From the NCBI GenBank assembly GCA_021129445.1, contig JAJOLG010000012.1:9265-16710 (forward strand): 7,446 nt of DNA. The letters run 5' to 3'. The notes under the pieces were generated by a model. That model worked only from the letters and a program-made list of their open reading frames with translations, was not told where the DNA came from and ran no database searches. A program made the translations under genes and the position numbers. This DNA is from Candidatus Altimarinota bacterium (GTDB taxonomy: Bacteria > Patescibacteriota > Gracilibacteria > GCA-2401425 > JAJOLG01). Shown here in pieces: positions 1-7,446 of the stretch (positions within the stretch are counted from its first letter, which is position 1; each line of letters starts with the position of its first letter).

Positions 1-1086
1 ATTGAAGAAGAGGTGGGAGAAAAATTGGAAAAAAAGTTAGAAGGAAAAAAAATAGAAAATATTACTGATAATCTTTGAGATGAAAAAATAGTAAAAACAG
101 ATGAATTGATTATTAAAGATAATAATAAAAATTTATTTTCTGATTTGTTTGATGATAAAAAAAATGACAATAGAGAAGATGATTGATGAAAATGAGATAT
201 TTTTTCTTGAGTATTGAAAAAGAATAAAACGATATCTATTTCTGCTACACAAGAAGAAATAGAAGAAGAGTGAAAAAAGCAAAAAAAGAAATTTACAATT
301 GATGATTTTTGAGTTATTTTAAAACATTTAAACTTACATTTAGTAACAGTTTTATTTTTGATTTTATCGATTATTTTTTCATCTGTGTTATTTTTTTATA
401 TAGTTTTTGATTCAAAAAATTATATTTTTTCATATTTTTGATGACATACTTTATGATCAAAAATAGAAGATATAAAAAATAAAGTAAAAGAAAAAGAGCA
501 AATTTTAAAAAAAATTGAATTATCTGTAAAAAAAATGGTTTGAGATATTCCTCAAAAAATTTACTTAAATACACCTCAATTTATTTCTTTGGAGAAAAAA
601 CTAAAAGAACAATTATTACAGTTTTATAACCCTAAAACATGAATGTTAAAAGCTGGTCTTACAAGTGAAGAAAAATGACAAATTGCTATTTTATTTAACA
701 AATATCCTGAATTAAATGCTTTAAAAACAATTTTTGTGAAACAGGATGTTTTAAATACTATTATTAATAATAGAATTTATTGGAAATCGGTTTATAAAGA
801 TTTAATTGATGCAACAAATAATGTTTTTGCATATAATGAAGTTATTCATTATGTTAAGTATGATAATTTTTCTGTAAATGAAAAATGAGAAATTACAGTT
901 AGTTGAAAGGTGACAGACCCATCTGGTAAGGTTTTTGCACAATTATTTAGATTAGAAAAAGCATTAAATGATAGTCCTCATTTTAGCTGAGTATCAATTA
1001 ATAATTTTAATAAAACTATTAATCCTGATAAAAATGTTTGATGAATGGTTACAAATATTAGTTTAAGGTTTAATTATTATAAATAA
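1..1086 (+). CDS. PilN-like type IV pilus inner-membrane protein, 5'-truncated
   Basis: The frame is open from base 1 to TAA at 1084-1086 (361 codons visible) once TGA is read as Gly; it has about 18 TGA and 4 GGN codons. The true start lies upstream of the window. Residues 1 to about 103 are very rich in Lys, Glu, Asp and Asn with no hydrophobic stretch, so probably a disordered cytoplasmic region. Residues about 114-136 form one strong transmembrane helix (nt 340-408). Residues about 153-180 look like a charged coiled coil, and the last 65 residues (from about 296) are beta-rich and resemble the C-terminal ferredoxin-like half of PilN (a 'V-S-G-K-V' strand, then a helix with 'RLEKALNDSPHF'). 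Known: PilN pairs with PilO to align the pilus motor with the rest of the machine. Inferred: the PilN role rests mainly on topology and on position just before PilO-like, pilB and pilC genes. Unlike typical PilN, whose cytoplasmic tail is short, this tail exceeds 100 residues. It could instead be a lineage-specific pilus protein. Confidence 0.5.
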
Positions 1087-1092
1087 TATTTT

Positions 1093-1866
1093 ATGTGAAT
1101 TGTATTAAGTGAAAATTTAAGCCGTAGAAAGAAAAAGAAATGATTATTTGATTTTGTAGATTATAATAATATTTATGTTATTGTTTTTACATCTTTTATT
1201 TTGCTTGCCTCTATTTTGTGAGTTTTATTTTGGTTTTATCAAAATTATTTTTTACAAAATTTTAATAAATTTATTAAAACTATAATTGATTATAATAAAA
1301 ATAATATTATAATTGTTTGAACAGAAGATTGAAAATATAAATGACTTAATTATCAAGAAAAATTTTTAAGAGATGTTGAAAAAAAAATTAAAATTACTTC
1401 TTGAGAAAATCAAAAAGATTTAGTATGAAAAATAAATTCTGCATTACCTGATGTTCTAGAAAAAGAATTTGTTATAAAATTTTTTGAAGATTTATTTTTA
1501 ACAATTTCTACAAAAAATAGCCCTGTTATTTTAAATTCAGTAAATGTTTGATCTGCTTCATATAATGAATTAGAATTATGAAAATGAGAAAAAATAAAAT
1601 ATAAAAAATATCCAATCTCATTATGATTTTCTGCTTCAGATAAAGAATACAATAGAATTTTGGATATTATTCAAGTGTCATGATTATTTAATAAAAAGTA
1701 TTATTTTAAAGGCTCAGTTTTACCAGTAATGACAGTTTCTGCTGTACAAATGAATTTTTCAGATAAAAATAAATGAAAAGAAGTTGTAGATGATACACCA
1801 AAATGAAGATCTCTTCAATTGTTTATGTATTCTTATTGAGATAAAGAAAATAAAATAAAAAAATAA
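1093..1866 (+). CDS. PilO-like bitopic type IV pilus alignment protein
   Basis: This 257-residue protein uses TGA as Gly (about 16 TGA, 1 GGC) and ends in TAA. ATG 1093 is the first possible start after the upstream stop, 6 nt away; no Shine-Dalgarno motif is present. The N-terminus is basic (RRKKKK at residues 11-16), followed by one transmembrane helix at residues 28-49. The rest should lie outside the membrane: a Lys/Glu-rich helical stretch (about 50-130), then an alternating strand/helix region to the end. This matches PilO architecture (short cytoplasmic tail, TM, coiled coil, ferredoxin-like domain), and the gene sits between a PilN-like gene and pilB. There is no decisive sequence motif, so the PilO name rests on topology and context. 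Known PilO proteins dimerise with PilN and link the motor to the envelope complex. No PilP or PilQ gene follows, which fits an organism without an outer membrane (inference). Sequence identity to characterised PilO is probably low. Confidence 0.55.
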
Positions 1867-1875
1867 AAATAAAAT

Positions 1876-3120
1876 ATGAGTGAAAATAATAACAATTTTG
1901 ACAGACTAGTTGATGCAATTTTAGATTGAGATGCTACTCAGATGGCAAATTTTGTAATTTTACATTCATTAAAAGTATGAGCTTCGGATATTCATATAGA
2001 ACCATGAGAATGAAATGTTAGAATCAGAATTAGAATTGATTGAGTTTTACATAGTTTGACAGAATATCAACCTTCACTTCATGATGCGTTTATTGCAAGG
2101 ATTAAAATTATGTCAAAACTTCAAACTGATGAAAAAAGAATTCCTCAGGATTGAGTGATAAATACGAGTTTAGAAGGTTGATGAGAGGTTGATCTTCGTG
2201 TGTCTACACTTCCAACTGTGACATGAGAAAAAGTTTGTATGAGAATTCAGGATAAAACAAAAACAATTCCAACTTTTAAAGAAATGTGAATTAGAGCATC
2301 TTGACTTCATAATTTAGAAACAGCAATTAAAAAACCAAACTGAATTGTTCTTGTTACTTGACCAACATGATCATGAAAAACAACAACTCTTTATTCTGCC
2401 TTATCTGTTTTAAATCAAGACGGAGTAAATATCATGACAGTTGAAGATCCTGTGGAAATTAAAATGGCATGATTAAATCAATGTCAGGTTGTTGAAAAAA
2501 TTTGATACACTTTTCCAATAGCTTTAAGGGCTGCTCTTCGTCAGGATCCAAATATTATTATGCTTTGAGAGATTCGTGATAAAGAAACTGTTGAAATTGC
2601 ATTAAGAGCTGCAATGACATGACATTTAGTTTTATCTACAATTCATACAAATAGTGCTGTTTCTACTATCAACAGGCTTTTGGATATGTGAGTAAAACCA
2701 TTCTTGATTGCTTGAACGGTAAATGCAATTCAGGCACAAAGGCTTGTTAGAAGGATTTGTCCTAATTGTATTGAGAAATATACACCAGATGAACATATTA
2801 TTGAAGATATTAAAAAAGAACTTGAATGATTACCTGATTCTGAGTGACTTGATGTATCAAAATTAGATTCCATTGTTTTGTCAAGATGAGCTTGATGTGA
2901 AGAATGTAATGATACATGATTTAAATGAAGAATGTGAATTTATGAAGTTTTGGAAGTTGATAGGGAAATTGAAGAAATGGTAGTTGCATGAAGGTGAGAA
3001 TTATCAATTTTAAAAAGAGCAAAAGAAAAATGATTTGTAACAATGATTCAAGATTGAATAATAAAAGCAATTGCTTGATTTACTACAATTGAAGAGATTT
3101 TTAATATTGTTAATACTTAA
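1876..3120 (+). CDS. pilB: Type IV pilus assembly ATPase PilB (GspE/PulE family)
   Basis: This 414-residue hexameric secretion ATPase powers pilus extension at the cytoplasmic face. The family motifs are clear with TGA as Gly: SDIHIEP near residue 38, RIPQDG, Walker A GPTGSGKT at 162-169, Asp box VEDPVE at 189-194, Walker B region with GEIRD at 231-235, and His box TGH (248-250) to STIHTN (254-259). A zinc-binding tetracysteine has CxxC at 295/298 and 341/344. The latter leads into TGFKGRMGIYEVL, typical of PilB/GspE and absent from PilT. There are about 33 TGA against 2 GGN codons, so a standard-code reading destroys the gene. It begins almost directly at the N2 domain: the N1 (MshEN-like) domain of longer PilB proteins (about 560 residues) is missing. 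ATG 1876 follows tandem in-frame stops (TAA AAA TAA) and has no Shine-Dalgarno motif. It lies 9 nt after the PilO-like gene and 10 nt before pilC, so probably in one operon. Confidence 0.96.
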
Positions 3121-3130
3121 AAAATAAAAA

Positions 3131-4312
3131 ATGGCACAAGGTTTAGATATTAAAGATGGAGCAGCTTGATGAGTTATTTTAAATGAGAAGTCAGAATATG
3201 AATGACTTTGATTACTTAAAAGTATAGATTTTTGGTTTGCAGAACATTCTTCAGTTTGAGTAAAAGATAAAGTAGTTTTTTTTAGGCTTTTAGCAACAAT
3301 GGTTTGAGCATGAATGAGTCTTGATAAATCTTTGGATGTTTTACAAGATCAGGCTTCATCGCCAAAATTAAAGAATATAATCAAAAAAATTCTTTCAATG
3401 ATTCAAGATTGAATTGAATTTTCTACTGCAATGACAAGGTTTCCTGATGTTTTTGCATCATCAGAGGTTTGACTTGTAAAAGCTTGAGAAAAATCTTGAA
3501 AATTAACAGTTGTTTTAAAAAATCTTGCTGATCAAATTGAGTCATCTGCACAATTAACATGAAAAATAAAGTGAGCAATAATGTATCCAGCTATGATGGT
3601 TATTGTTGTTCTTTTTGCAATTGTTGCAATTATGATTTTTGTAATCCCTGAAATTAAAAAAATGTTTGAGTCAATGTGAGCACAACTTCCACAAATGACA
3701 ACAATGTTGATAAACACCTCTGATTATTTAACTTCAAAAAATAAATTGATTTGATTGAATAACACCTTAGTTTTATTTATGTATATTTGATTATTTGTGA
3801 TGTGATTTATTTACTTTAAAAAAACAAAAAAATGAGAAAAGATTTATAATCTTTTCATGTTAAGAACTCCATTGTTTTGATCTTTAATTAGAAAAATGGT
3901 GATTGCAAAATTTTGTAGATGATTGACAATTTTAATTTGATCTTGAATGTCTTTGATAAATTCTCTTTATCTTTTATCTGAAATGGTTTGAAATGAGGCT
4001 TATAGATTAAGAATTTTAAGGATTATTTCTGATGTGAAGCAGTGATTAGATATGTCTCAAAATATGAAAAGAGATTCTCTTTATTTTCCTCCAATGCTTG
4101 TTTCTATGATTGCTGTTTGAGAAGAAACTGCTCAATTAGAAGAGGTGTCAAAAAAAGTTGCAGAATTTTATGAAGAAGAGGTTGACACTGCTGTTAATTC
4201 ACTGATGTCACTTTTAGAACCAATTATTATTGTTGTTGTTTGACTTGTAATTTGATGAATTATTGTTGCGGTTATGCTTCCAATTTTATCAATTTCTGAT
4301 ATTGTAAAATAG
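3131..4312 (+). CDS. pilC: Type IV pilus inner-membrane platform protein PilC (GspF family)
   Basis: This 393-residue polytopic protein sits above PilB and couples its ATPase cycle to pilin insertion. Its length matches the family (about 400). Two T2SSF repeats are visible. The first, at residues about 45-170, has FFRLLATMVGAGMSL, then V-K-A-G-E-KSGKL, then the MYPAMM signature at 151-156 leading into TM1 (about 153-177). The second begins near residue 250 with 'KFCRGLTILIGSGMSL' and carries AVGEETAQLEEV. TM2 spans about 213-229, and TM3 about 364-386 after LLEP at 361-364. Glycines are almost all TGA (about 28, with 2 GGN). The gene ends in TAG, the only TAG stop among the five genes whose ends are visible. 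It starts at ATG 3131, 10 nt after pilB, with an A-rich leader and no Shine-Dalgarno motif. The short N-terminal region (about 45 residues before the first repeat) is normal for the family. Confidence 0.95.
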
Positions 4313-4344
4313 TTTTTTCTATAAAATTATTTCATTTTTACAAT
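4301..4344. terminator. Inverted repeat at the pilC/clpC convergent junction, possible bidirectional terminator
   Basis: A perfect 9-bp inverted repeat (attgtaaaa at 4301-4309, ttttacaat at 4336-4344) spans the stops of both convergent genes, extending to 11 of 12 bp if one mismatch is allowed. A small inner stem (4309-4312 with 4319-4322) around six Ts overlaps the outer stem by one base. The stem has only one G-C pair and the outer loop is 26 nt, so it is weak by normal intrinsic-terminator standards. The arms also encode the similar C-termini Ile-Val-Lys of PilC and Ile-Val-Lys-Met-Lys of ClpC, so the symmetry could be partly coincidental coding. The position, in a 14-nt convergent gap, is where a shared terminator would be expected. 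Confidence 0.3.
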
Positions 4345-6957
4345 TTCAAATTCAATATTTTCTCATTTTTTTCTTCATTTTTTAATAATAATTTTTGCAG
4401 TATTTCAATTTTTTATTTTTCATAAAATAATTTCTTCTGATAATTTTTCTTCAATCATTTCCTGTATTGTTCTTCTAACTTTTCTTGCTCATGAATCCGC
4501 ATCATAAGAAATATTTGCGATACTATCGATAATATTTTTTGAATAATTTAATTTTAAATTTTGCTCAGAAATTCTTTTTTCTAATTCTTTTAATTGAAGT
4601 TTTACAATTTGTTTAATTGCTTTTTTATCAAGCGGATTGTAAACCAAGATTTTATCAATTCTATTTAAAAGTTCTGGTAAAAAATAATCTTTGATTTCTT
4701 CTAAAACTTCAGCTTTTTTTTCTTCAAAATGTTCTTTTGCATTTTGCAATTCATCTTTTTCATCAGTTGCAAATCAAATTTGACTAGCTTCTTTTGTTAA
4801 AGTTTCTGCTCAAATATTTGAAGTCATTACAATAATTGTATTTTTAAAATTAATTTTTCTTCATTTTCAGTCAGTTAAAACTCAATCTTCAAGGATTTGA
4901 AGTAAAATATTGTATGATTCCGGGTGTGCTTTTTCAATTTCGTCAAATAAAACGATAGAATACGGCTTTTTTCTAACAGCTTCTGTTAATTGACCACCAT
5001 CTTCATGTCAAATATATCATGCGCTTGCACCAATTAAACGACTTACATTGTGTTTTTCTCAAAATTCACTCATATCAATTTTTATCAAAGCATCTTTTGA
5101 GTCAAAAAGTTCTTTTGCTAAAACCTTTACAGTTTCAGTTTTTCAAACTCATGTCGGTCAAAGTAATAAAAATGATCAAACTGGTCTATTTGGAGATGAA
5201 ATTCAGGCTCTATTTCTCAAAATTGTTTTTGAAATTTTTTCTAAAATATCATCTTGTCAAATAATTTTTAATCAAAGATCTTTTCAAAGTTTTACAAGTT
5301 TTTTGTTGTCATCATTTGATGATTTTATTGATTCTATTCAAGTTGCAAGTGAAACTGCTTCCAAAATGTCTTGTTTTCAGATTGTTTGAAGTTTATCTTT
5401 ATCAATTTTATTATTTATAATTAACTCTTCAATATCAGCTTTAATTCATTCCTCTTCATTTTTTAATTCAATTCATTTTCAAAAATTTTGTTGGTCGATA
5501 GCTTTTTTCTTTTCTTTTGCAATTTCTGATAATCTTTTTTCCAATTTTTTCTTTTTTTTCAAAATTTCTGGATTTAAGAAATTTCATTTTTTTGCACATG
5601 CTTCATCAAGTAAATCAATTGCTTTATCTGGCAAAAATCTTTCTGGAATGTATCTTTTTGAAAGTTTTATTGATGATTCCAGTACTTCATTTTCAATTTT
5701 TACATTGTGATATTTTTCAAAAGATATTTTTATTCATTTTAAAATATCCAAAGTTTCTTTTTCGCTTGGTTCATCAACTATAACCTTTTGAAATCTTCTG
5801 TCCAAAGCTTTATCTTTTTCAATTTTTTTTCTGTATTCATCAATTGTTGTTGCTCAAATAATTTGCACTTCTCATCTCGCCATTGCTGGTTTCAAAATAT
5901 TTGCTCAATCAAGATTTCAGTCAGGATTTCACAATCAAACAAGTGTGTGAATTTCATCAATAAATAAAATAATATTATTTTCTGAATCGGATGCTTCTTC
6001 AATAATTACTTTTAATCTCTCTTCAAATTCTCATCTAAAAGTTGTTCATGCAACCAAATCTCATAAATCTAAACTTAAAACTTTTTTTCATAAAATGCTA
6101 AATGGAACTTCTCAATTTTGTATTCTTATCGCAAGTCATTCAGCAATTGCAGTTTTTCAAACTCATGCTTCTCAAATTAAAACTGGTGAATTTTTTGTTT
6201 TTCTATTTAAAATATTTACAACTCTCTCAATTTCTTTATCTCTTCAAATTATTGGGTCAATTTTTCATTCTTTTGCTAATTTTGTGAAATCAGTAGCAAA
6301 AAAATCCAACATTTCAGTTTTTGATTTTACCTCTTTATTTTGTTTTTTTAAATCATTTACTTCTTCTGCTCAAATTCAAATTACCATTCATCATCATTTT
6401 CATCAAATTGCTCATTCAAGCATTGAAAAAATTCCTCATAAAGTTCATCATCATTTTTTTATTACCGTACTATTTTGATTTTGGTCAAAAACTCATGGTA
6501 AAAGTTTAAATCAATCTTTCAAAGAAGTTTTTATAATATTTGTATCAACTTCTAATTCATTTAAAATAATGTATCCTGCTGATCTCATATTTGAACAAAT
6601 CGCATACAAAAGATGTTCTGTTCAAACAAAAGTATGTTTGTTTTTAAATGCAATTTTTAATGCATCTTCAATTACTTTTGCCAAATAAACTGTCATTTTT
6701 CAGTTTACAGTGCTTCTTTTTCAAAAGTTAAATTTTAAAATTGCACCTTCCAAAATTTCATAATCAATTCACAAAGACATTAAAACATCAAATGGCAATT
6801 GTCATGGAATTGATACAATTCAGAGCAATAAATGTTCAGTTCAGATTACTCATGCATCTGTTTCATTGCTAAAATTTTCTGCAAATTGTAATGCAATTTT
6901 TGCTTCGTCTGTAAATCTATCAAAAGGATTTGTTTGTTGTCTTTTTTTTACTGGCAT
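4327..6957 (-). CDS. clpC: ATP-dependent Clp protease ATP-binding subunit ClpC
   Basis: This 876-residue Hsp100 unfoldase would feed substrates to ClpP. Two Clp_N repeats lie at residues about 8-135 (GTEHLL at 39 and again at 112). A glycine-rich linker (169-196) follows. AAA+ module 1 has Walker A GEAGVGKT 262-269, pore loop GTTFRG 304-309, Walker B FIDEIH 332-337 and arginine fingers 387-388. The middle domain is short, with a UVR-like helix pair near 470-505 (AIDQQNF at 486), as in ClpC and unlike the long ClpB M-domain. Module 2 has Walker A GPTGVGKT 600-607, pore-loop Tyr648, Walker B FDEIEK 671-676, the IGF ClpP-docking tripeptide 727-729, LNR Arg766 and sensor-2 GAR 823-825. IGF plus the UVR domain indicate ClpC, not ClpB. 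About 67 glycines are TGA and 6 are GGN. ATG 6957 is the only start available, because an in-frame TAA lies four codons upstream at 6970-6972. Stop is TAA. The N-domain to module 1 spacing is longer than usual, with Walker A at 262 instead of near 210. No CIRCE or CtsR-type operator is visible upstream. Confidence 0.95.
6370..6453 (-). other. Glycine-rich linker of ClpC encoded almost wholly by TGA
   Basis: Residues 169-196 of ClpC contain 13 glycines in 28 positions, including two GGG triplets. Twelve are TGA and one is GGA. The segment lies between the double Clp_N domain and AAA+ module 1. It accounts for part of the extra length before Walker A and is likely a flexible tether (inference). 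On the + strand it appears as repeated tca triplets. Confidence 0.85.
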
Positions 6958-7138
6958 ATTTTTTTTAAATTATTTTAAAATTCTCGCAAAGAATAAGAAT
7001 TTTTTTGAAGAAATAAAAATTTTTTTGGGTAAAAAAAAATTTTTTGGCATTTTGTAAAATTATTTTTGGTTTTTTGAAAATTTTTTTGATTTTAGGAAAA
7101 AATATTTGAATAATGTAAAAAAATAAAAACTAAAAAAT
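6958..7138. promoter_or_regulatory. Divergent intergenic region with A-tracts between clpC and the Fem-like gene
   Basis: This 181-bp gap must carry the promoters of both divergent genes. It is rich in A/T tracts (7015-7026, 7031-7045, 7056-7067, 7070-7075, 7077-7087), several spaced about one or two helical turns apart, which could bend the DNA. An 8-bp perfect inverted repeat (aaaattct at 6977-6984, agaatttt at 6996-7003, 11-nt spacer) lies 20 bp upstream of the clpC start and is a possible operator. It resembles neither CIRCE nor the CtsR box, and such repeats arise by chance in AT-rich DNA. I found no convincing -35/-10 pair for clpC and no ORF in the gap. Confidence 0.4.
7086..7114 (+). 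promoter_or_regulatory. Candidate sigma70-type promoter of the Fem-like gene
   Basis: TTGATT at 7086-7091 (four of six matches to TTGACA) is followed after 17 bp by AATAAT at 7109-7114 (five of six matches to TATAAT). This would place the transcript start near 7121, with a leader of about 18 nt before ATG 7139. The spacing is ideal, but AT-rich background makes such matches easy. Confidence 0.3.
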
Positions 7139-7446
7139 ATGTATAAATTAAAAAAAATCTCAGATAAAAATATTTGGAATAATTTTACGATTAAAAATGC
7201 AAAATTTTATTCATTTTTAAATTCTTGGGAGTGGTGAAAATTTAATGAAAAGCAGTGAAATCAGGTTTTTTATTTTTGAATTTATAAAAATGAAGATGAG
7301 CTGGTTTGAATTTTTATGATGATTTTGCACAAGGCAAAAAGGTGAACTTATTTATTTTGTCCGCATTGACCGCAGATTTTGGAGTCAGAAAATTTTTTTG
7401 AAGTTCTTGAAAATTTAAAGCCTCAATTAAAAAAAATCGCCAAAGA
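7139..7446 (+). CDS. FemAB/FemX-family peptidoglycan bridge aminoacyltransferase, 3'-truncated
   Basis: 102 complete codons are visible and the frame is still open at the window end. Six TGA codons encode Gly and no GGN is used. One site reads Trp-Glu-Trp-Gly as tgg gag tgg tga, showing that TGG is Trp and TGA is not. The visible part matches the N-terminal GNAT-like subdomain of Fem enzymes: an SWEWGKF motif at about residues 29-35, a strand pair ending near FGIYKNEDELVGIF, then TYLFCPHGPQIL, equivalent to the family's 'YLPRGP' segment. Known: Fem enzymes transfer amino acids from aminoacyl-tRNA to the stem peptide of lipid II or peptidoglycan. Related GNAT-fold proteins do other acylations, and the catalytic second half is outside the window, so the substrate cannot be stated. 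ATG 7139 is the first Met after an A-rich leader without a Shine-Dalgarno motif. The gene is divergent from clpC. Confidence 0.7.

Follow-up and report, generated by a model that had tools for sequence, protein, structure and literature searches.

Glycine as the meaning of UGA in a patescibacterial genome with a standard-code sister: a probable second origin of stop-to-glycine reassignment

Genes and reading frames of the window

The stretch of DNA analyzed here, referred to as the window, comprises 7,446 nucleotides. Read with translation table 25, it contains six frames:

1..1086, plus strand: from its position only, probably PilN-like (pilus assembly), 361 amino acids, 18 TGA; cut at the left edge of the window
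1093..1866, plus strand: probably PilO-like (by position only), table-25 ORF of 257 amino acids, 16 TGA
1876..3120, plus strand: pilB/gspE-type pilus assembly ATPase, 414 amino acids, 33 TGA against 2 GGN, stop TAA; Pfam T2SSE, 1e-124
3131..4312, plus strand: pilC/gspF-type membrane protein, 393 amino acids, 28 TGA against 2 GGN, stop TAG; Pfam T2SSF, 1.1e-58
4327..6957, minus strand: clpC-type Clp ATPase, 876 amino acids, 67 TGA against 6 GGN, stop TAA; Pfam Clp_N/AAA/ClpB_D2, 3e-62
7139..7446, plus strand: 5' part of a FemAB-family gene, 102 amino acids, 6 TGA; Pfam FemAB, 1.3e-7; cut at the right edge of the window

Two membrane-anchored proteins, neither with a family match, thus precede pilB (positions 1 to 1866). 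The first has one membrane helix and a Pfam match below the cut-off only; the second carries a membrane helix at its N-terminus and gave no Pfam family over the cut-off.

No in-frame TAA or TAG occurs in any of the six frames, and the remaining two same-strand frames of each gene contain 4 to 58 of these triplets each. The five frames that end within the window use TAA four times and TAG once. A previous reading, made from the sequence only, had described the genes as otherwise intact and had counted 168 TGA and 15 GGN codons by hand; the frames are indeed uninterrupted by TAA or TAG, and both counts are exact. Its statement that every gene holds dozens of TGA codons is, however, too generous for the short frames, which have 6 to 18. 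It had also expected small, mostly antisense ORFs from a standard-code annotation, and under table 11 the ORFs of the window are mostly antisense, the longest having 127 amino acids.

None of the five visible starts (1093, 1876, 3131, 6957 on the minus strand, and 7139) is preceded by a Shine-Dalgarno-like sequence. Their leaders consist of A and T only, or nearly so.

The meaning of UGA

The invariant glycines of PilB, PilC and ClpC had been reported to be TGA wherever they were checked. This is true for every motif that was named: GPTGSGKT (2359, 2368, 2374) and GEIRD (2566) of PilB, LIGSGMSL (3938, 3944) of PilC, and GEAGVGKT (6174, 6165, 6159), GPTGVGKT (5160, 5151, 5145) and IGF (4776) of ClpC. 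However, the GASAGYIGHEDGGQ stretch of ClpC has three glycines encoded by GGT (5031, 4998, 4995). The sequence-only reading had further suggested comparing PilB and ClpC with known proteins. With X written for each TGA, both match solved structures of their kind (4.5e-93 for PilB, 3e-182 for ClpC), and within the motifs the X residues align to glycine.

Comparison of ClpC with 16 standard-code relatives gave glycine in 32 of 36 conserved TGA columns and tryptophan in none, while 29 of the 33 columns with at least 90% glycine in the relatives carry TGA here. A codon-by-column table was compiled for rpoB, rpoC and clpC against standard-code relatives from an alignment in which TGA, TGG, CGA and CGG of the window's genome were masked. 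Conserved glycine columns carry TGA in 151 of 165 cases; conversely, the conserved TGA columns hold glycine 151 times, alanine five times and tryptophan, the residue that the earlier reading had named as speaking against glycine, never. For the remaining codons, where conserved columns are numerous enough, the usual meaning holds, and TGG stands on 10 of 11 conserved tryptophan columns, in agreement with the earlier view that tryptophan is still TGG.

The assembly that holds the window has 672,893 bases in 77 contigs and is 94.8% complete and 0.5% contaminated. Codons were counted in 341 kb, about half of it, where 279 ORFs with 102,337 codons contain 6261 TGA against 1114 GGN. About 85% of the glycines in this genome, which has a GC content of 24.9%, are encoded by UGA. 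Within the same 341 kb every ORF of at least 200 codons contains TGA, and the ORFs end with TAA (227) or TAG (36). UGA is thus the main glycine codon genome-wide, as had been claimed from the window, and not a rare recoding event; only UAA, which prevails, and UAG serve as stops.

Most other recoded bacteria read UGA as tryptophan, and this might be expected here as well. However, no conserved tryptophan column falls on TGA, as opposed to 151 conserved glycine columns, and the use of TGA across the whole genome speaks against programmed recoding or a sequencing artefact in the same way. The probability of all of these is, in our view, negligible, and the codon-by-column table rules out tryptophan, programmed recoding and pseudogenes. 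That UGA encodes glycine in the window's genome is close to certain. By itself, this codon meaning is already known.

Placement of the host and origin of the code

What is unexpected is the host, whose family belongs to an order of the Gracilibacteria-Peregrinibacteria group that otherwise uses the standard code. A screen published in 2021 found stop-to-glycine reassignment only in Gracilibacteria and Absconditabacteria (eLife; PMC8629427), and in 2026 a screen covering 42,109 genomes, almost all of them from GTDB 214, reported it in 53 genomes of class JAEDAM01 (PMC13092985). A review of 2026 describes it as restricted to the JAEDAM01 lineage and as having one origin (PMC13293708). No report from outside JAEDAM01 was found in the literature to 2026, with preprints and most subscription journals lying outside the search.

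The window's genome resembles the code 25 systems of Absconditabacteria (SR1) and Gracilibacteria (BD1-5, class JAEDAM01) in the genome-wide use of UGA for glycine, in UGG for tryptophan and in UAA and UAG as stops, and it is likewise a small, AT-rich Patescibacteria genome. In contrast to them, it is phylogenetically separate and has a standard-code sister, and about 85% of its glycines are UGA. The sequence-only reading had assigned the code to SR1/Absconditabacteria and Gracilibacteria. While the codon table is numerically 25, the implied descent is not borne out by the trees.

Our sample comprised 145 genomes of the class, with one genome of the window's family and one other of its order (G001). 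Among the main matches listed for these 145 genomes, TGA-rich clpC genes occur only in the families f12, f15, f22 and f24 and in the window's genome. From their code we infer that these four families are JAEDAM01; in f12 and f15, the genomes each possess a single full-length release factor whose gene contains internal TGA, which would be anticipated for the known code-25 clade.

In an rpoC tree of 29 genomes, from which one row (G045) was left out because of a wrong-strand ORF, the window's genome and G001 are sisters (100/99). Both fall inside a clade of six standard-code genomes (100/99), while the code-25 families lie on one side of a branch (99/98). Constraining the window's genome to the code-25 families costs 34.6 log units (p-AU 0.03). 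Analysis of rpoB, rpoC and clpC together gave full support both for the sister pair (100/100) and for the code-25 clade (100/100), and forcing the window's genome into that clade was rejected (p-AU 0.004). Its placement was unchanged after removal of all columns with glycine in the window's genome (p-AU 0.005). A tree of ClpC alone was rooted with Saccharibacteria, Chloroflexota and Actinomycetota; a scan of named genomes for ClpC had yielded mostly Saccharibacteria and Actinomycetota, some of which were taken as outgroup. Here, the code-25 families group together (100/98) and the window's genome stands outside, with its nearest forks open.

A chimeric bin was considered and rejected. The clpC (67 TGA) and rpoC (100 TGA) genes are themselves TGA-rich and do not group with the known clade, although for clpC this is not significant; thus contamination cannot produce the result.

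One might still suspect that the genome belongs to the known Absconditabacteria/Gracilibacteria code-25 clade as an ordinary, if divergent, member and that the trees mislead. The identical codon meaning and the long branch of the window's genome fit this suspicion, and in an unrooted AU test ClpC alone does not reject joining that clade (p 0.086). However, the rpoC and three-gene trees separate the two with full support (AU p 0.03 to 0.004), and GTDB assigns the window's genome to the order of G001. Furthermore, the window's genome shares its AT-richness with family f15, and the code-25 genomes G042 and G033 have a similarly high AT content (GC of the rpoB region about 26%). Compositional attraction would therefore pull it toward the code-25 clade and not away from it. 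We consider membership in the known clade improbable.

Both code-25 lineages belong to one GTDB class, which would also be compatible with a single ancient change of UGA to glycine at the base of the class, followed by reversion to stop in all standard-code families. On the three-gene tree, however, this history demands at least about six reversions, each of which would have to regain RF2 and purge in-frame UGA, against two events for two gains. It is very improbable, more so than membership in the known clade. Since, under any root, the window's genome branches from within standard-code genomes, two gains of UGA as glycine form the simplest history.

With good confidence, limited by the single MAG, the three genes and a decoder that was not found, we hold that UGA was reassigned to glycine a second time, by convergence, outside JAEDAM01. 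The explanation that best accounts for the data as a whole, and which we regard as highly probable, is a reduced Patescibacteria/CPR host of 25% GC with genome-wide UGA as glycine, whose code was acquired separately from that of JAEDAM01. An independent UGA reassignment at the family level within Patescibacteria has a parallel in the family JAKLIH01 (NAR 2026, gkag327). However, UGA became tryptophan there and glycine here, and the two belong to different classes.

If this is true, stop-to-glycine reassignment, thought to have arisen once, has a second origin. Together with a standard-code sister in which RF2 is present and UGA is a rare stop, it would provide a before-and-after pair for testing codon capture and for asking why glycine and not tryptophan was chosen in this group. 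On the practical side, table 25 would not be assignable from taxonomy alone, and pipelines that employ table 11 or 4 would break or mistranslate genes of this order.

Release factors and the decoding tRNA

The sister genome G001, which GTDB places in the same order, is the closest relative in the rpoC and three-gene trees and has a nearly identical tRNA-Gly(UCC). It differs from the window's genome in its size (1.3 Mb), its GC content (35%), the lack of in-frame TGA in clpC, rpoB and rpoC, and the possession of both RF1 (motif PxT) and RF2 (motif SPF), neither with internal TGA. Its tRNA set is normal and UCA was not seen, 3 of its 33 tRNAs being unread. TGA terminates one of 43 long ORFs in G001; RF2, on contig C9 (L295), is kept despite this rarity. 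RF2 together with a rare UGA stop possibly represents the state before reassignment.

In the window's genome, neither prfA (RF1) nor prfB (RF2) was found with two Pfam models and the RF1 of G001 as query. In code-25 genomes, by contrast, this query does detect RF1, with 7 to 17 TGA codons inside the gene. Similarly, the tRNA-Gly(UCA) that defines the code of JAEDAM01 was not found among the 26 tRNAs of this incomplete assembly, relaxed threshold included. ARAGORN with introns and a relaxed tRNA search of 341 kb gave no UCA anticodon either, and none of the 88 matches to a DNA pattern for UCA anticodons was readable as a tRNA. The single intron-bearing tRNA-Ala proposed by ARAGORN is likely spurious; an intact tRNA-Ala is present.

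About nine other expected tRNAs are missing as well, namely those for Met (elongator and initiator), Ile-CAU, Glu, Arg-UCU, Leu-UAA, Thr-UGU, Ser-GCU and Gly-GCC. Since prfA and essential tRNAs are thus also missing, the absence of tRNA(UCA) and prfB is uninformative on the mechanism of the code. The simplest reading is that release factor and tRNA loci are lacking from the assembly, and these absences are not evidence either way. The tRNA clusters of this genome may sit in unassembled repeats.

In SR1, tRNA-Gly(UCA) is charged by GlyRS, according to the account of Campbell et al. (2013) in a later review (PMC13293708). By analogy, a tRNA-Gly(UCA) derived from tRNA-Gly(UCC), along with the loss of RF2, is the likely basis of decoding in the window's genome. 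AT pressure and genome reduction would have made stops at UGA rare, a condition that persists in the sister genome, and RF2 would then have been lost. A duplicated tRNA-Gly(UCC) may subsequently have gained the UCA anticodon through a C36-to-A change and captured UGA, after which GGN codons would have drifted to UGA until the present proportion was reached.

An orphan tRNA with the anticodon CCA lies at positions 1944 to 2019 of contig C8 (G000:C8:1944-2019; L288:1944-2019), about 7.2 kb upstream of the window and directly after tRNA-Lys(UUU). One might speculate that UGA, while meaning glycine, is read by such an unusual tRNA. In line with this, tRNA(UCA) was not found, and besides the orphan there is another tRNA(CCA) gene (G73; L290:12830-12904), the likely real tRNA-Trp. 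Moreover, with C1-G72 and A73 the acceptor end of the orphan differs from that of tRNA-Trp, and no full-length relative was found among 140 genomes of the class. However, its acceptor stem is devoid of the bacterial tRNA-Gly elements G1-C72, C2-G71 and U73, TGG remains tryptophan, and with so many expected tRNAs missing the true decoder probably lies in an assembly gap. We therefore judge this proposal unlikely. It is quite probable that UGA was assigned to glycine independently in this family, which has its nearest relatives among standard-code bacteria, possibly with a decoder tRNA non-homologous to that of the known clade.

With regard to arginine codons, CGA and CGG are absent from the six frames of the window and from the rpoB, rpoC and clpC columns, and they occur 97 times in the 102,337 codons counted genome-wide. 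One informative CGA/CGG site was tried, in Mfd, and its residue is not conserved in the match. Both codons encode tryptophan in Absconditabacteria (eLife 2021;10:e71402). Two further tRNAs of the assembly have the anticodons CCG and GCG (L304:3026-3102 on contig C5 and L318:107-182 on contig C30). Neither is matched by any tRNA read in G001, where Arg-UCG is present instead. The decoding of arginine CGN codons in the window's genome may thus also be remodelled.
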